Below are positions 1-32,493 of a stretch of 32,493 nucleotides of DNA, piece by piece. The stretch is taken from positions 1 to 32,493 of the forward strand of contig DUMQ01000014.1 of NCBI GenBank assembly GCA_012839815.1, read 5' to 3'. The position numbers and the translations under genes are program-made. The notes below the pieces were generated by a model, which made no database searches, was not told where the DNA came from, and worked only from the letters and a program-made list of their open reading frames with translations. Source of the stretch: Bacillota bacterium (GTDB lineage Bacteria > Bacillota > SHA-98 > Ch115 > JABLXJ01). Position 1 is the stretch's first letter, and each line of letters opens with the position of its first letter.

Positions 1-112
1 CGTTGAAATTTGGCGCGAGGGCCTTGCCAAATTTCAAGAGGCCCCGTCACGCAAGCACCGGCAACCCATGGGACGTGCTCGTAGACTGGCACAAATTAAG
101 AAACCTCTATTT
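1..112. repeat. Fold-back repeat element, copy A (left-truncated by window edge)
   Basis: A 12-bp perfect hairpin (arms at 3-14 and 26-37, TTGAAATTTGGC and its complement) opens the window. Bases 1-60 are a near-identical reverse complement of 26630-26689. The following bases (about 69-112, from GGGACGTGCT through CTGGCACAAAT to AACCT) match the right flank of the second copy in direct orientation. The core is therefore inverted relative to its flank when the two copies are compared. The left end lies outside the window. Confidence 0.75.
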
Positions 113-122
113 AGGCGCATGG

Positions 123-143
123 AGTGGCAAGAGTCTTACCGCC
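123..143. repeat. Isolated copy of the 21-bp palindrome found in the right-edge array
   Basis: The arms AGTGGCAAG and CTTACCGCC flank AGT. This closely resembles the array units at 32307-32327 and 32413-32433. It lies about 200 bp upstream of the sensory hydrogenase-kinase gene. It could be a protein-binding site or a stray copy of a dispersed repeat; nothing in the window decides this. Confidence 0.55.
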
Positions 144-160
144 CTGAGGCTGCGATCCGG

Positions 161-213
161 GCAGGAAGGCTGACAGGCACGCAGGCAGGCTGGCTGGTTG
201 GTTGGCTGGCAGG
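161..213. repeat. GGCA/GGCT/GGTT tetranucleotide-like simple repeat
   Basis: A run of imperfect four-base units (GGCA, GGCT, GGTT) lies in the gap before the first gene. The minus-strand open frame across it has a simple repetitive composition (Leu/Pro/Ala) and no recognisable domain, so I do not call a gene. Confidence 0.6.
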
Positions 214-240
214 AGCGTCCCCATCAGGCAGGTCATAGGA

Positions 241-256
241 CTATGGCTAGCCATAG
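241..256. promoter_or_regulatory. Perfect 16-bp palindrome upstream of the sensor gene (operator candidate)
   Basis: CTATGGCTAGCCATAG is a perfect palindrome about 90-100 bp before the first gene. The flanking CATAGGA and GGGCTATAG extend the symmetry loosely. It may be an operator, but no cognate regulator is identified and no convincing -10/-35 pair was found next to it. Confidence 0.35.
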
Positions 257-343
257 GGCTATAGATGGATGTAAGCAGCCTGTAGACCACAATTCTTACA
301 TGCACCCCTGGTTCTCCCCTCCCCTTACCTTTTTTCATGTGAA

Positions 344-2875
344 ATGATAGAATTATACGTTGAGGGGAGTGAAACCGGAGCCGTGGAGATCGTTACGACT
401 ATTGAGGGCAAGTGCAAGAGGTGCTATTCGTGCATACGCAACTGCCCGGTAAAGGCGATCAAGGTGGAAAACGGGCAGGCGAAGGTCGTACCGGAGCTTT
501 GTATCGCGTGCGGGCACTGCGTCCGAGTCTGTTCTCAAAACGCCAAACGGATCCAGGATGATACGGGGAAGGTCGCGGGATTCTTTGGAGACAGGGATAG
601 GGCAGAGGGAGAGGGTGAAATCAAGAGCGTTATCGCGGCCCTCGCTCCATCATTTGTCGCTGAGTTCCCCCGGTGCAGCCCGGGCCAGGTGGTGGCTGCC
701 GCCAGGAAGCTGGGATTTGACGCGGTCTATGAGGTCGCCTGGGGCGCTGACCGGGTCACCTGGGAGTATGTTGGCCTGCTTAAGAAGGCTAATCGCGCTC
801 GTGGGATAATAAGCACGCCGTGCCCTGCAATAGTGAACCTGGTTGAAAAGCGATATCCGAACTTGATCCCCAGGCTCGCACCTGTTGTCTCCCCCATGAT
901 CGCGCTCGGCCGGATGATCAAGGCCCGGACTCAAGAGAGCAACGGGGGCGAGGTCAAGATCGTTTTTATCGGCCCATGCGTTGCCAAGAAAAGCGAGATC
1001 GCGGATGAAAACGTCCGCGACGCGGTGGATGCCGTGATCACATTTCAGGAATTCAGGAAGATGCTGGGCTCCGCCGGGATAAACCCTGAGGCCCTTGAGC
1101 CCGCCCCATTTGATGGCCCGGAGGCTTCCCTGGGCCGGCTCTACCCCGTTTCGGGCGGCCTCTTGAAGAGCGCGGCGCTTAGGGCCGACATGATGGAAAA
1201 CGATATCATCGTCGTTGAGGGGAAGGATAATTGCCTCGAATTTCTGGATTTGCTTTCCCGTGGGGCGGCAAGTCCCGAGTTTGTTGACATGCTCTTCTGC
1301 GAGGGCTGTATCAACGGCCCCATGATGACAAGTCCCCTGGTGGGTTACGTCCGGAGGAAGGTTGTCGTAGATTTTGCGAAGAAAGGGCAGGGGAAGGGGC
1401 AACAGCAGGAGAACCCTTCATTTCCTGAGATAGTGGCACGTCGCACGTATAATGATAAAAGCGTCAAGCTACCCGTCCCTAATGAAGCGGATATCCAGAG
1501 GATACTGTGGGAGCTTAACAAGACGAGGCCCGAGGACGAGCTCAATTGTGGGGCCTGCGGCTATAATACCTGCCGGGAAAAAGCCATCGCCGTTTACCGT
1601 GGGCTCGCGGAGAACAAGATGTGCCTGCCTTATTTAATAAGCGAGCTTGAGAAGACCAATGAAGAGATCGCCGCCTTGCGGGATTATAATAGGAACATCG
1701 TGGAAAGCATTACGGAGGGTATTATAGTTGTGGACAGGAATTGCATGATCACCACGTTCAACGATGCAGGGGGCAGGGTCTCGGCGCTGAGCGGCGGGCG
1801 CGCAGTTGTTGGCAGGTATCTCCCGGACGCGCTCCCGGGGCTGGGGACGGAGGAGTTTATGAACGTCCTGAAGCGGACTATCCGGCAAGCTCAACCGGCT
1901 GAGATTACAGGCTTCCGGTATGGGCTCCAAGAACGCGACGTGATCGTGAATATAAAGATATACCCTCTCCGGAACGGTACTTCGAATGTTCACGGCGCTG
2001 TTATCATAACAGAGGATGTTACCGAGAAGAAGCGCCTTGAGGATAAGCTGGCGCAGTCTGACAAACTTGCGGCGCTCGGCCAGCTCGCCGCCGGTGTCGC
2101 GCACGAGATAAATACGCCGTTGACCTTGATATCGGGCTACACGGAGCTTCTCCTGAATGAATTGAAGGGCGAGGGGGCGGCGGCAAAACGCCTTGGGATC
2201 ATCGCGGAAGAGGTGGACCGGATCGCGGAGATCGTGCGGAGCCTCCTGAGCTTCGCCCGGCCTGCCCCGCGGCCATCGGAGAAGTGCAAGGTGAATGAGG
2301 CCATCAGGCGGACCCTGAGCCTGGTCGAGCGGCAGATGGCTTACAGGGGCATCGAGCTTATCGTGAACCTTGCAACGGGAGAGCCGGACCCTGAAGTCCT
2401 GGCCGACCAGGGTGAGCTGGAGCAGGTGTTCCTGAACATAGTCCTGAACGCTATCCAGGCGATGCGGAACGGCGGGCGGCTAGTGGTCGCAACTCGGGTC
2501 GTGCCAGAGCAACGGGATAGTGTAAGCATGAAATCTGGATCGGAACCGGAGCCGGAGCTAGAGTCGGAGCTAGAACTGGGGCCAGAGCCGAAGCCAGGGC
2601 CGGAACCTGGACCGCAACCAGGGGCAGGGAAGCCAGGGATGGGGGCCGGTCGGCGGCTTGAGATCGAATTTACGGATACGGGGTGCGGGATTCCCGAGGA
2701 AAACCTGGGTAAGATCTTTGATCCCTTTTTCACTACCAAAGATGTGGGCCAGGGTACCGGGCTCGGGCTTTCCGTTAGCTACGGGATCGTAAAGAAATAC
2801 GGCGGCAGCATAAGGGTTACGAGCAAGGTGAATAAGGGGAGCACCTTTATAGTTGAGCTTCCGATCAGCAAATAA
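344..2875 (+). CDS. hydS: Sensory [FeFe]-hydrogenase (HydS-like, group C) fused to PAS-histidine kinase
   Basis: Probable H2-responsive sensor kinase (843 aa). Residues 24-63 carry two [4Fe-4S] ferredoxin motifs (C24/27/30/34 and C53/56/59/63). Residues about 95-330 form an H-cluster domain with diverged signatures: TPCPAI (C160), GPCVAKKSE (C212) and CEGC (C319/C322). Proline precedes C160 where catalytic enzymes have the proton-transfer cysteine, which is typical of putative sensory hydrogenases. C402/405/410/427 form a further Fe-S motif, then a PAS-like region (about 445-560), a HisKA box with phospho-acceptor His about 587 (AHEINTPL), and an HATPase with N and G boxes. A Glu/Pro/Gly-rich insert (about 731-768) interrupts the ATPase loop. 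No transmembrane segment is evident, so it is likely cytoplasmic. ATG 344 lacks a ribosome site; GTG 383 (residue 14), after GAGGGGAG, fits family N-termini better. An NtrC-type regulator follows directly. H2 sensing is inferred from family. Confidence 0.92.
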   Translation: MIELYVEGSETGAVEIVTTIEGKCKRCYSCIRNCPVKAIKVENGQAKVVPELCIACGHCVRVCSQNAKRIQDDTGKVAGFFGDRDRAEGEGEIKSVIAALAPSFVAEFPRCSPGQVVAAARKLGFDAVYEVAWGADRVTWEYVGLLKKANRARGIISTPCPAIVNLVEKRYPNLIPRLAPVVSPMIALGRMIKARTQESNGGEVKIVFIGPCVAKKSEIADENVRDAVDAVITFQEFRKMLGSAGINPEALEPAPFDGPEASLGRLYPVSGGLLKSAALRADMMENDIIVVEGKDNCLEFLDLLSRGAASPEFVDMLFCEGCINGPMMTSPLVGYVRRKVVVDFAKKGQGKGQQQENPSFPEIVARRTYNDKSVKLPVPNEADIQRILWELNKTRPEDELNCGACGYNTCREKAIAVYRGLAENKMCLPYLISELEKTNEEIAALRDYNRNIVESITEGIIVVDRNCMITTFNDAGGRVSALSGGRAVVGRYLPDALPGLGTEEFMNVLKRTIRQAQPAEITGFRYGLQERDVIVNIKIYPLRNGTSNVHGAVIITEDVTEKKRLEDKLAQSDKLAALGQLAAGVAHEINTPLTLISGYTELLLNELKGEGAAAKRLGIIAEEVDRIAEIVRSLLSFARPAPRPSEKCKVNEAIRRTLSLVERQMAYRGIELIVNLATGEPDPEVLADQGELEQVFLNIVLNAIQAMRNGGRLVVATRVVPEQRDSVSMKSGSEPEPELESELELGPEPKPGPEPGPQPGAGKPGMGAGRRLEIEFTDTGCGIPEENLGKIFDPFFTTKDVGQGTGLGLSVSYGIVKKYGGSIRVTSKVNKGSTFIVELPISK
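2536..2646 (+). repeat. In-frame hexamer-type repeat encoding Glu/Pro/Gly linker
   Basis: Repeated GGA/GCC-GGA/GAG-like six-base units encode alternating Glu-Pro, Glu-Leu and Gly-Pro pairs. They sit inside the histidine kinase ATPase domain, between the N box and the Asp/Gly box. The position is a variable loop, so the insertion is probably tolerated. Confidence 0.8.
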
Positions 2876-21823: not shown

Positions 21824-22007
21824 ATACCTTCGATATAAGGCCGCCTGGCGGAGAGATGCGAGACGCCCCGGCCACTGTGCGGCACTGGTAGCTGTCACCT
21901 GCGAAAGGTCCGGGTATTTTTGCGCACCAACTTAGGGTTGGGCAGCATGCAAAATTCTTTCAGGTAGAAGCCGGTAATTAAAGTAAAGGTAGGGGAGGGG
22001 AGGCACG

Positions 22008-26187: not shown

Positions 26188-26616
26188 TGAATACCATATT
26201 TATTCTACCTTACCATTTTATCTTCTGCAAGCCCTAATTATACCTGAGTCCCAATTATAACCGGCGCCCGGCTTTATCGAATACTTTCAGGTAGAATATC
26301 CGGAAATAAGATTACCCCAGCAATGAGTATACTCCCTCCATGCCCTTAATTGCGGCCCTTGATTGCGCCGCCTTTCTAAGTTAGTGGTGCATAGCAGAGA
26401 GGCCTACCCCCCTGGCCGCGTCCGCCGGCAACTTCCTTATATCCGGCGAGGTGCCAGCAGAGATTGCCGTCGGAGTAAAATCATGGTATCATAAATCCTA
26501 GGAGAATCAATCCTTGACCAGAAGGATTCTCGAAAACATGACCTTATATACGTTAGATTAGAAGGGGCAAGTTTGCAGGATAGCTAAGTGTAAGTTCGAA
26601 GATTATTGACGTTTTT
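26188..26616. other. Intergenic region with small hairpins
   Basis: No gene seen. AATCCTT/AAGGATT (26509-26528, 6-base loop) and CGCCGG/CCGGCG (about 26430-26455) can form hairpins. CTTTCAGGTAGAA near 26285 also occurs at about 21956; this may be coincidence. Confidence 0.35.
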
Positions 26617-26790
26617 CCAGGACTTACGGTGCTTGCGTGACGGGGCCTTTTGAAATTTGGCAGGGCCCTCACGCCAAATTTCAACGGAGGCGCGCCGCAA
26701 GCGCGCCGTCCCCGGAACGCAACACCGTAAGTCCTGGGACGTGCTGGTAAACTGGCACAAATCAAGGAACCTACACTTAGACCCCATGCC
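26617..26790. repeat. Fold-back repeat element, copy B (complete core)
   Basis: Outer arms of 15 bp (CCAGGACTTACGGTG 26617-26631 and its exact complement 26723-26737) enclose 91 bases. Inside are a 12-bp hairpin (26650-26661 with 26673-26684) and a 7-bp GGCGCGC hairpin (26689-26695 with 26701-26707). About 50 bases to the right (GGGACGTGCT to AACCT and beyond) also match copy A at the left edge. The core orientation is opposite to that in copy A. No transposase is present. Confidence 0.8.
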
Positions 26791-30000: not shown

Positions 30001-32071
30001 TGATGAGAAGCTTCGTGGCTTTTTGACCCAGCTTAGGGCCGCGGGGCGGGCGGTACATGTAACATGGACCGTTCCACGGGTGGATAGGACGGCGGAGTGG
30101 GGATCGGGCACGGGCAGAGGGTTCGCTACGGTGAAGCGGCAGGCCTGGATCGCCGCTGAGAACTTGCCGGAATACCGCGCCGCGCTCGGGGACCGGCTAA
30201 TCGATGACGGGTACCCTCATGCCGGCGTTATGGAGGGCGGGGGGATTATAGAGGGTGGTAACGTTACGGCGGGCGGCGGGGGTGAGACACAGGATGGCGC
30301 CGAGATCAGTGCGGAGGAGGCAAGAGATAAGCTTATACGCCGTTTCGCGCGGGCTCGCGGCCCGTTTGGGATTGCAGATGTCGCGAATTTCTACGGGTTT
30401 TCCGAGGAAGAGGTCATGACATCCATCTCCAGGCTGGAGTCGGCCGGATTCCTCCGGAGCGGGGAGTTTCTCCCCGGTGGGACGGGCCTCGAATGGTGTG
30501 ATGCCGGTCTATTGCAGCAGATCTACCGGCGCAGTCTTGCAAAGGCGCGGCGGGAGGTGGCGCCGCGCGATCCTGAGGATTATTGCGCCTTCCTCGCCCG
30601 CTGGCACGGTATCGGCGCCCCTGGGGCCGGCGCGGAGGGACTCAGCCGGGCTCTCGAACGGCTTGCGGGGGTGTTCTTGCCTGCCCGCCTGTGGGAGGGT
30701 GGCATCCTGCAGGCGCGGGTGCGCGGGTATGAGCCGGGGCTCCTGGATCAGTTGATCGGGAGCGGCTTTTTCACGTGGTTCGGGCGGGGGAACGGGGAAG
30801 AGATAGAGATTGCCATCTGCCCGGCTGGCGAGTTCCCTGAGAGCATCCCCGGTGCGACTCGTGCGGTAGCTAATACTAACGCTGGTGCTAGTACTGGTGC
30901 CAGTGCTGGTGCTAATGCTAGTGCTGATGCTGGTACTGATGCTGGTGCTGGCGCCGGTGCCATGCCCGGCGGGTCTATGGTCGATTTGGCTGGCATCCCC
31001 TCGCGGGTCATGAACGCGCACGCGGAGATAATCAACCTCTTGCGGGAGAAGGGCGCGCTTTTCCTGCCGCAGATCTGGCAACAGACGGGGCTATCCGTTG
31101 ATGAGATTCTCCTCGCCCTGGAGGAGATGGTGCGCCGCGGGGAGGTCACAAATGATACGTTTGGCGCCGTGCGGAGCATCCTTGCGACGGGTACCAGGTT
31201 GGGCAATCACAATGCAGGCCCGGGTCACGGTGCGGTCCGGGTAGGTTCAGGCCCGGGGCCGGGTATCGTAAACCGTTCCGTTGCAAGCCATCCCAGGTTG
31301 AATCATTTCATGTTAAATCAGATGGGGAGATGGTCCCTCATTGAATGGCCACGGGCCCGGGCCGGGGGAGATCACCTGGCCGAGCATCAGCTTGCAGATC
31401 GCCTGGCGCGGGTGTGTGAGCGCCTCCTGGCGCGCTACGGCATTGTCAGCAGGGAGGTGGCGTCCCTGGAGGGATTTACATGGGGACCGCTCAACGAGAT
31501 CCTTGCAAATTGGGAGATGGCTGGCAAGGTGCGCAGGGGATACTTCGTTCGCGGCCTGTCCGGGGTCCAATACGCGACCACCGAGGCGGTAGACGGCCTT
31601 CGCCTGCCACGGGATGCGGGGTTGCCCAGATTCTGGGGGCTCGTGGTAGGCGATCCGGCAAACCCGTGGGGAAAACTATTTCCATGGCCTGTTCTTAATC
31701 TTGCTTCACCCCATCCAGGTCCCGCGACAGCGTATCTCGATGCCGGGCTACACCTTGCCCGGTTTACGCTGCCGGTCCTGCCGTCGGTCGTCGTGCTCAA
31801 GGAGGGCACCCCGGTCATCATCGCGGGGGGTAGAAAGGTAAGGGTCGTATCACTCAAGCCCCTTGATGAGGCTGGCGATTTGACATATGCCCTGAGAGAG
31901 CTCACCAGGGTCCTTGGTTGGATTCACTACCCCGGGGAACGCGGTAATCGCATCGAGGTGGCCGAATGGAATGGGAGGCCAGTTACCGATACAGAAGCCG
32001 GTGAAATCCTGGCTGAGTTCGGCTTTGAACGCGGGCCCAGGACGATGATCAAATGGGATGGAACAGGATAG
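27020..32071 (+). CDS. lhr: Lhr-type large superfamily 2 helicase
   Basis: A 1683-aa ATP-dependent 3'-5' DNA helicase of the Lhr family (bacterial Lhr is usually about 1400-1600 aa). RecA1 domain: LLAPTGSGKTLAA (Walker A, about 43-54), TTPESLFLML, VDEIHSLFPTKRG (motif II, about 168) and LSATQRP (motif III, about 203). RecA2 domain: VHHGSMSREQR, ATSSMELGIDVGSIDLVIQV and GLQRVGRAGH (motif VI). Winged-helix and Lhr-core domains follow, then the long C-terminal region found in full-length bacterial Lhr. Two simple-sequence inserts (27671-27818 and 30862-30960) account for part of the extra length. A weak GGGGG site precedes ATG 27020. Repair-associated role by family; no partner gene is adjacent. 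Confidence 0.95.
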   Translation: MGFSFSQFHPAIATWFRETFSEPSPPQARGWPAIAAGKNVLLLAPTGSGKTLAAFLQCLDWLYKRIEAGDDINSGVQVLYISPLKALNNDIYRNLEVPIDGIKRTAERMGLQLPRLTSAIRTGDTPARARQAMLNHPPHILITTPESLFLMLCSKAREILRTVRFVIVDEIHSLFPTKRGAHLAISLEYLGELTGHPFQRIGLSATQRPLEEVAAFLGGGTTGGAIGESGGSSGSSDRGGGGSIGDASIGDSCGGCSVGESNIDGTRWIPRPVEIIDTGQRKELDLLVQVPVNDLRELPEKTVWPEIYRYLLGLVLEHRSTIIFVNNRRVAERVAANLNDLARMRDMRMRDAGFGTGVPDIARVHHGSMSREQRLEVEELLKEGKLRCLVATSSMELGIDVGSIDLVIQVESPHEVARGLQRVGRAGHLVGLPSKGRIVVKTRMDLLEAAVIAREMEAGRIERSRAPMNCLDVLAQQIVGLAVDCAMPVDDLFRLVRRAYNYRHLRREDFEAVLAALSGQFGADELIDLRPRIFWDRVNGLVRASETGKRLVYTNGGTIPDRGYFGVYTAGSPVRLGELDEEFVYERRIGDRFVLGTNTWEIEEIRQDRVIVAPARGAPTVIPFWRGEGFGRPYELGCTLGRFLEEIAARLDEPDLPGWLRRECLLDEAAARNLRDYLLAQHKATGVLPSSRSMVVEEFRDELGEWRVVIHSPFGQRVNGPLAMLLTAALRETHGIEVESVRTDDGILFLCPAAPEPPFIDPASLASLDLDDLERRLAGLVRTTPLFGMIFRHAAARALMLPRGPYGRKRTPLWLSRLKAADLLQVVDRYPSFPVVMEAYREILSEVFDIEGLREVILGLRTGAIQVHRCRRSTPSPFARPLVFGLVAAYMYEADLPKGERRLHALTMDPGALKSLLGGAGRDQLRQLLDPKVVREVVDAARRFRRFRSPDELHAWLLKAGEWVEDDRPPGAGAGDDLNTNDGACANDNIDVSNDEKLRGFLTQLRAAGRAVHVTWTVPRVDRTAEWGSGTGRGFATVKRQAWIAAENLPEYRAALGDRLIDDGYPHAGVMEGGGIIEGGNVTAGGGGETQDGAEISAEEARDKLIRRFARARGPFGIADVANFYGFSEEEVMTSISRLESAGFLRSGEFLPGGTGLEWCDAGLLQQIYRRSLAKARREVAPRDPEDYCAFLARWHGIGAPGAGAEGLSRALERLAGVFLPARLWEGGILQARVRGYEPGLLDQLIGSGFFTWFGRGNGEEIEIAICPAGEFPESIPGATRAVANTNAGASTGASAGANASADAGTDAGAGAGAMPGGSMVDLAGIPSRVMNAHAEIINLLREKGALFLPQIWQQTGLSVDEILLALEEMVRRGEVTNDTFGAVRSILATGTRLGNHNAGPGHGAVRVGSGPGPGIVNRSVASHPRLNHFMLNQMGRWSLIEWPRARAGGDHLAEHQLADRLARVCERLLARYGIVSREVASLEGFTWGPLNEILANWEMAGKVRRGYFVRGLSGVQYATTEAVDGLRLPRDAGLPRFWGLVVGDPANPWGKLFPWPVLNLASPHPGPATAYLDAGLHLARFTLPVLPSVVVLKEGTPVIIAGGRKVRVVSLKPLDEAGDLTYALRELTRVLGWIHYPGERGNRIEVAEWNGRPVTDTEAGEILAEFGFERGPRTMIKWDGTG
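27671..27818 (+). repeat. In-frame Gly/Ser-rich hexamer repeat in lhr RecA1-RecA2 junction
   Basis: GGTGGT/AGTAGC/ATTGGC-like six-base units encode residues about 218-266, a Gly/Ser/Ile/Asp run directly after the EEVAAFL segment of RecA1. It sits on the surface between core motifs, so the ATPase core is intact. Confidence 0.8.
30862..30960 (+). repeat. In-frame Ala/Gly/Ser/Thr/Asp hexamer repeat in lhr C-terminal region
   Basis: Tandem GGTGCT-AGTACT / GCTGAT units encode an alternating Ala-Gly/Ser/Thr/Asn/Asp run of about 33 residues. The DNA repeat is well preserved, suggesting recent expansion. Confidence 0.85.
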
Positions 32072-32084
32072 ATAATAGATAGAT

Positions 32085-32250
32085 ACAAAGATGGTTCAGG
32101 TTCAGGTCATGCGGGCGGGTCATGATTCGGGTCATGCGGGTCATGATCGAGTGATGCTTATGCTCGAGTCATGCTTGAGTTATGTTCGAGTTATGCTCAT
32201 GCTCTAGTCATGCTCATGATCGAATCATGCTCGTGATCAAATCTTGCGGG
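32085..32250. repeat. Degenerate TCATG-rich tandem repeat downstream of lhr
   Basis: GGGTCATG, GAGTCATGCT, GAGTTATGTT and similar units recur roughly every 10-13 bases from about 32104 to 32235. No gene is supported here. Confidence 0.6.
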
Positions 32251-32272
32251 CGAGGTGGTGAGCGAGGTGGTA

Positions 32273-32493
32273 AGGTGGTAAGCAGGTTGCCACCTTTACG
32301 GCTCAGGGTGGTAAGATTCTTACCACCATCATCGATGGGTCACGGTTGGGTGGTAAGCAAGTTACCAGGATAGACGTCGAGGTGATAAATAACTTGCCAT
32401 CTCATCGGGCTAAGTGGCAAGATACTTTCCAGTGCAGCGAGCAGGTGGTAACTAACTTGCCAGCCTGGCGCGCAGAGTGGTAAGATACTTGCC
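32273..32493. repeat. Array of at least seven helically phased 21-bp imperfect palindromes
   Basis: Units start at 32274, 32307, 32349, 32381, 32413, 32444 and 32476 (the last is cut by the edge). The best unit (32307-32327) has perfect 9-base arms GGTGGTAAG and CTTACCACC around ATT. Others vary mainly in the arms (GGTGGTAAC/CTTGCCAGC, AGTGGCAAG/CTTTCCAGT). Start-to-start spacing is 33, 42, 32, 32, 31 and 32 bases, close to 3 or 4 helical turns. Spacers between later units are 10-11 bases and unrelated. No gene overlaps it. Confidence 0.8.

Follow-up and report, generated by a model that had tools for sequence, protein, structure and literature searches.

Predicted dimer-binding sites in a helically phased array inside a probable ISKra4-type mobile element of a Bacillota genome

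A row of imperfect palindromes (dyads) at the right edge of a 32,493-nucleotide stretch of Bacillota DNA, which we call the window, forms the core of an element that is non-coding and is bordered by the terminal repeats GGGTGCATGTA...TTGTGG. Judged from its sequence, the array probably represents the cis-acting core of a non-autonomous element of the ISKra4 group (prokaryotic Mutator-like, p-MULT 4) that carries predicted dimer sites. We put the probability of this reading at about 0.72, and at 0.72-0.8 when it is worded simply as dimer sites on DNA within a mobile element of ISKra4 type. The element is dispersed through the genome, bears terminal repeats and lies upstream of promoters, and its dyads are phased along the helix and constrained in their cores. 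In the mechanism that we propose, an ISKra4-type transposase would have copied the element through the genome, setting its right terminal repeat (IRR) about 16-18 bp upstream of sigma-A promoters. Each 21-bp dyad would be the site for a protein dimer, with the half-site RSTGGYAAR, and the dimers would line up next to one another along one face of the DNA to give a continuous nucleoprotein complex inside the element.

A dispersed array of phased dyads

The window is the entire contig C144, and the array is intergenic, past a helicase-type open reading frame that ends at 32071. The start-to-start spacings of its seven 21-bp dyads (Table 1) are 33, 42, 32, 32, 31 and 32. This confirms the row of palindromes at 31-33 bp with one gap of 42 that an earlier note on this DNA had described, and the pairing exceeds what shuffled sequence gives. 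Three dyads pair at 7 or more of the 9 arm positions (0.24 expected from dinucleotide shuffles, 4 of 2000 reaching three), and five pair at 6 or more (1.6 expected, 9 of 2000). The half-site matrix finds a single weak match (8.4) in the other 31 kb of the window, while array units score about 19-28.

Table 1. Coordinates of the array, the element ends and the predicted promoter in the window
Feature	Position	Strand	Basis or remark
Dyad 1 (u1), GGTGGTAAGCAGGTTGCCACC	32274..32294	.	dyad scan and half-site matrix
Dyad 2 (u2)	32307..32327	.	9-bp arms perfectly paired
Dyad 3 (u3)	32349..32369	.	42 bp (4 turns) past u2
Dyad 4 (u4)	32381..32401	.	half-site matrix
Dyad 5 (u5)	32413..32433	.	half-site matrix
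Dyad 6 (u6)	32444..32464	.	half-site matrix
Dyad 7 (u7)	32476..32493	.	clipped by contig end, 18 of 21 bases present
Leader of the window array copy	32101..32273	+	5'-truncated, without left terminal repeat; expanded GAGTCATGCTC-type repeats
Right-hand end of another copy, left window edge	42..307	-	92.5% identical to C94:587-853
Right terminal repeat (IRR) GGGTGCATGTAAGAATTGTGG	287..307	-
Terminal dyad AGTGGCAAGAGTCTTACCGCC of the left-edge copy	123..143	.
Predicted sigma-A promoter TTACCT-N17-TAGAAT	325..353	+	-35 box 17 bp from IRR; top 0.4% of background

The arm motif singled out in the earlier note proved strongly enriched genome-wide: with up to three mismatches allowed, the 2.8-Mb genome has 142 occurrences of GGTGGTAAG-N3-CTTACCACC on each strand and one of its reversed control. 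Used as a query, the window array matches 49 places in the genome, mostly contig ends, where a repeat that interrupts assembly would be expected to lie. Array pieces lie on about 40 of the 163 contigs and most are 92-100% identical, spacers included; the number of copies is lower than this contig count, because the two halves of one copy often enter the count as separate pieces. An unbroken copy on contig C85 runs from u0 through u13 and has one further clear dyad (at least 14-15 dyads in all), with spacings of 33, 33, 42, 32, 32, 31, 32, 31, 32, 32, 31, 32, 32 and 41. The array was expected to continue beyond the window, and in other copies of the element it does, but the contig itself stops at 32493, inside dyad 7.

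This dispersal over about 40 contigs means that the array is not a single-locus platform. A partition or replication-origin site, which should occupy one locus or very few and be linked to par or replication genes, is unsupported on this ground. The idea of a multi-dimer platform therefore survives in part: half-site conservation, phasing and constrained cores uphold dimer sites on DNA, while partition, origin and silencing functions give way to the interior of a dispersed, transposon-type element. Near-identical repeats and locus-specific, unrelated spacers, as a CRISPR array needs, are both lacking, since repeats differ within one array and spacers are common to different loci; CRISPR had been discounted from the start. 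The same comparison overturns the description of the spacers as unrelated, as these 10-11-bp segments have a weak consensus of about YYGRCGYGYRR and are identical from locus to locus. The recurrence of the same spacers at different loci indicates that the whole 31/32-bp repeat is inherited, and their weak shared consensus that the repeat arose by tandem duplication.

Element ends, ISKra4 affiliation and promoter-upstream placement

From the pieces available, the element would consist of a left terminal repeat (IRL), a leader, about 14 phased dyads, a right module and the IRR. The left junctions of many copies start at GGGTGCATGTAATTTTTGTAATGTGG and have unrelated flanks, and the right ends on contigs C124 and C94 bear GGGTGCATGTA...ATTGTGG. 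The order on C94 is array, two other dispersed repeats, last dyad and right repeat. Its right part matches window positions 42-307, so the window has the right end of one copy at its left edge and the left part of another at its right edge; the idea that the left-edge copy is a separate subfamily was dropped in view of C94, which shows it to belong to the same element. On no contig of this assembly were both terminal repeats of one copy found together. In the leader of the window copy (32101-32250), the 11/17-bp GAGTCATGCTC-like repeats are expanded and their number varies among copies, which could make them a length-variable marker.

The two other repeats also occur in the window. A stand-alone copy of the second dispersed repeat (26583-26779) is a highly stable stem-loop with CTAAGTGTAAGTT/AACCTACACTTAG at its bounds; both arms of the stem, CCAGGACTTACGG...CCGTAAGTCCTGG, depart from the usual CCATGGGTTGCCGG...CCGGCAACCCATGG, a compensating change. 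This module is nested in array elements on C94 (folding z = -9), C105, C88 and in window positions 1-120. The third dispersed repeat (...CTCGCAGGTGACAGCTACCAGTGCCGC...) has a copy at 21841-21925 and is likewise nested beside arrays on C94, C105 and C65.

The layout of IRL, array and IRR modules resembles that of the pneumococcal BOX elements, which are also non-autonomous and have terminal modules flanking a variable tandem array (boxB) (PMC3049150); the resemblance is one of architecture only. BOX elements have been described through RNA folding, whereas the units of the array element are helically phased dyads without covariation.

Several features connect the element to the ISKra4 group of p-MULT 4, which is described as inserting upstream of promoters (PMC3942029): ISKra4 insertion sequences that we found in related genomes have similar GGGTGCATGTA...TTGTGG terminal repeats, and a transposase of the family is present in the genome. 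Both the IRL and the IRR of the element align with those of ISKra4 relatives in genomes G003, G234 and G005. The only full-length ISKra4 transposase of this kind in the genome is encoded on contig C139 (NF033572, 2e-90) and scores 304 bits with the NCBIfam model for ISKra4, above the cut-off, and 115 bits with that for ISLre2, below it. This assignment to ISKra4 sets the system apart from TnGBS and ISLre2 (p-MULT 3). On C139 an IRL (GGGTACATGTAACTTTTGTGGG) lies 5' of the transposase gene and a diverged array directly 3' of it; compared with the terminal repeats in the dispersed copies, this array points the other way, and its right end is lost. In the relatives in G003 and G234 the transposases are 58-61% identical, and terminal repeats of this kind are present on either side. 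No dyad array was found in these two relatives, so transposition in this family can do without one. Unlike these insertion sequences, the dispersed element has no transposase and carries a phased array of about 14 dyads. The composite of the element on C94 contains no ISKra4 transposase open reading frame, and for this reason we file the element only as a non-autonomous relative of the ISKra4 group.

A motif that resembles the terminal repeats and lies within the transposase gene (SACKNVV codons) was considered as a possible origin of fragments and dropped, the true terminal repeats being those at the element ends. The leader preceding the ISKra4 transposase coding sequence contains a hairpin (L049:1868-1940), GATATCCTCCTC...GAGGAGGATATC, that would hide the ribosome-binding site; G234 has a similar one, and C39 has a remnant that includes the leader and the first codons.

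According to Guerillot et al. 2014 (PMC3942029), insertions of TnGBS, of ISLre2 and of ISKra4-group members lie 13-17 bp ahead of a sigma-A -35 box, and in oriented cases the right repeat adjoins the promoter. Taking this rule as a prediction, we scored promoters by offset at 8 IRR and 19 IRL-type junctions. The mean score at the IRR junctions peaks at offset 16 (6.4); the next best offset reaches 0.4 and the others are nearly all negative. Six of the eight IRR junctions fall in the top 0.4% of background promoter scores; none of the 19 IRL-type junctions does, and there is no peak on the IRL side. A -35-like box lies 16-18 bp from the IRR at seven of the eight junctions: at 16 bp the boxes are TTGACG, TTGCGG, TTGCAG, TTGACA and TTGACA (with a weak -10 for the TTGACA on C80), at 17 bp TTACCT (copy at the left edge of the window) and at 18 bp TTGCAT (C94, just outside the published range). 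The remaining junction, on C124, has TTGACA at 22 bp. That the IRR junctions obey the promoter rule is independent evidence that an ISKra4-type transposase moved the array element. In the window, the predicted promoter is assigned to a gene (344-2875) with ferredoxin, hydrogenase-like and histidine-kinase parts by sequence; its program-called ATG at 344 overlaps the predicted -10 box, so the true start is probably downstream.

Both the terminal repeats and the placement bear on whether the array belongs to the REP/REPIN/BIME family mobilised by a RAYT (TnpA-REP) transposase, as its short palindromes in dispersed clusters could suggest. The Y1_Tnp domain (PF01797) is absent from the genome (controls were positive), and the element has ISKra4 terminal repeats and sits upstream of promoters, which makes this the least credible of the readings that we considered.

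Nature of the dyads and the candidate binding protein

Each dyad could form a short stem, and the array could accordingly be taken for a row of RNA hairpins acting as a terminator, an mRNA stabiliser or a small RNA. Among 78 distinct units of diverged arrays, we counted 476 paired arm positions, against 472 +/- 7 after re-pairing arms between units, with no excess at any single pair of arm positions. The partly compensating arm changes reported earlier are thus not in excess among these units, and the suggestion of a hairpin array in RNA, disfavoured by the same lack of covariation, is very improbable: Rfam matches to the array are not above chance and helical phasing is unexpected of RNA. The half-sites are instead conserved independently of each other as RSTGGYAAR, with the core TGGYAA, a pattern that a dimer site should show and a hairpin should not.

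A neutral tandem repeat within a transposon, palindromic by origin only, would account for the weak spacer consensus, which points to tandem duplication, and for the spread of copies as units. The distribution of changes runs counter to it. Between diverged arrays, identity is 78.5% in the arms, 61% in the spacers and 64% in the centres. In 31 recent copies, 13 of 132 core sites are variable compared with 46 of 142 spacer sites (p=7e-6), and the proportion of varying cells is 0.8% at core positions and 4.8% in spacers; the difference holds at non-CpG sites when stratified by base (p=0.0006). The TGGYAA cores are thus 4-6 times less variable than the spacers, recent copies included. This constraint and the phasing, which outlasts divergence and rearrangement, leave a neutral repeat improbable.

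Spacings in the diverged arrays fall into classes of 31-33, 42, 53 and 73 (near 3, 4, 5 and 7 turns), with a few exceptions at 36, 39, 41 and 50. Their mean phase is 0.00 turns at 10.6 bp, a value that picks out no single pitch, since most belong to one narrow class. The arrays also share descent, so the spacings are not independent observations; what is informative is their persistence at about 70% identity. Near-whole-turn spacing is kept in 70%-identical copies, and the u2-u3 gap of 42 bp is retained in the majority of diverged ones. Spacings of 3 or 4 turns would place dimers on one face of the helix and so allow a continuous complex. Together, the lack of covariation, the constrained cores and the kept phasing point to sites for dimers along one face of the DNA helix rather than to hairpins in RNA.

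We infer that a protein binds the dyads, that the binder is dimeric, and that it is more likely to be the transposase of the element than a regulator of the host. The transposase is the leading candidate because of two sequence features. GGYAA is found at IRL positions 21-25 in C139, G234 and C61/C83 (three lineages), although so short a match could be due to chance, and in the congeneric genome G001 (L113:1436-1660) the terminal repeat of a short four-dyad array runs straight into the first dyad (GGGTGCATGTAATTGTGGTAAGATTCTTACCACC). At this G001 locus a second terminal repeat, in direct orientation, follows the array. Within the reading of dimer sites in an ISKra4-type element, we consider the odds for the transposase as the binder to be roughly even; the relatives that move without an array speak against it. 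Bound to the dyads, it would help to pair the ends or to capture a target. Repeated transposase-binding sites inside terminal repeats also occur in Tn7-type ends and plant subterminal repeats, but their sites are fewer and are not known to form a row of dyads phased at 31.5 bp over about 450 bp.

The main rival to the transposase is a captured host DNA-binding dimer, either a regulator or a nucleoid protein, with the same element and the same DNA sites, so that every insertion would bring a remote control or silencing platform upstream of a promoter. The elements do sit upstream of promoters, their cores are constrained in recent copies, and the ISKra4 relatives in G003 and G234 have no array. 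However, many copies are truncated or have other repeats separating the array from the promoter, and we regard this host-protein reading as a substantial minority possibility; it includes the element and site parts of the preferred explanation, so the two confidences overlap.

Distribution and meaning of the array

A search for two phased dyads in 299 genomes of the phylum gave 47 forward and 53 reverse matches in this genome and one match in each of four others, which look like chance. Two arrays in G001, a genome of the same genus, are related to this one, at 93% and 72% identity. No plasmid or phage matches to the array were found by blastn. Candidate stretches number 19 in the viral collection and at least 91 in the genome collection; when the genome-collection matches listed were checked for denser runs, they proved to be pairs, or simple repeats that are tightly packed and have a different period, with no comparable array. 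Among the phylum sample, the phages and plasmids compared by blastn and the genome-collection matches listed, arrays of this kind were found only in this genome and one congener.

Our literature searches returned no description of ISKra4-derived elements with palindrome arrays. The ISKra4-type terminal repeats and the insertion rule are known; what is new is the phased array inside a non-autonomous relative. Bacterial non-autonomous elements are usually viewed as carrying little beyond their terminal repeats. About 14 phased, predicted dimer sites under measurable constraint suggest that the interior of this element does something, and since promoters are what its family targets, insertion sets the array beside host genes. 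It is conceivable, though unlikely on balance, that the long array is a mobile nucleoprotein platform brought upstream of host promoters, for the element's own mobility or for the rewiring of host transcription. With so compact an element one can ask whether bacteria have multi-site transposase assemblies of this sort, or whether such elements carry platforms for the binding of regulators.
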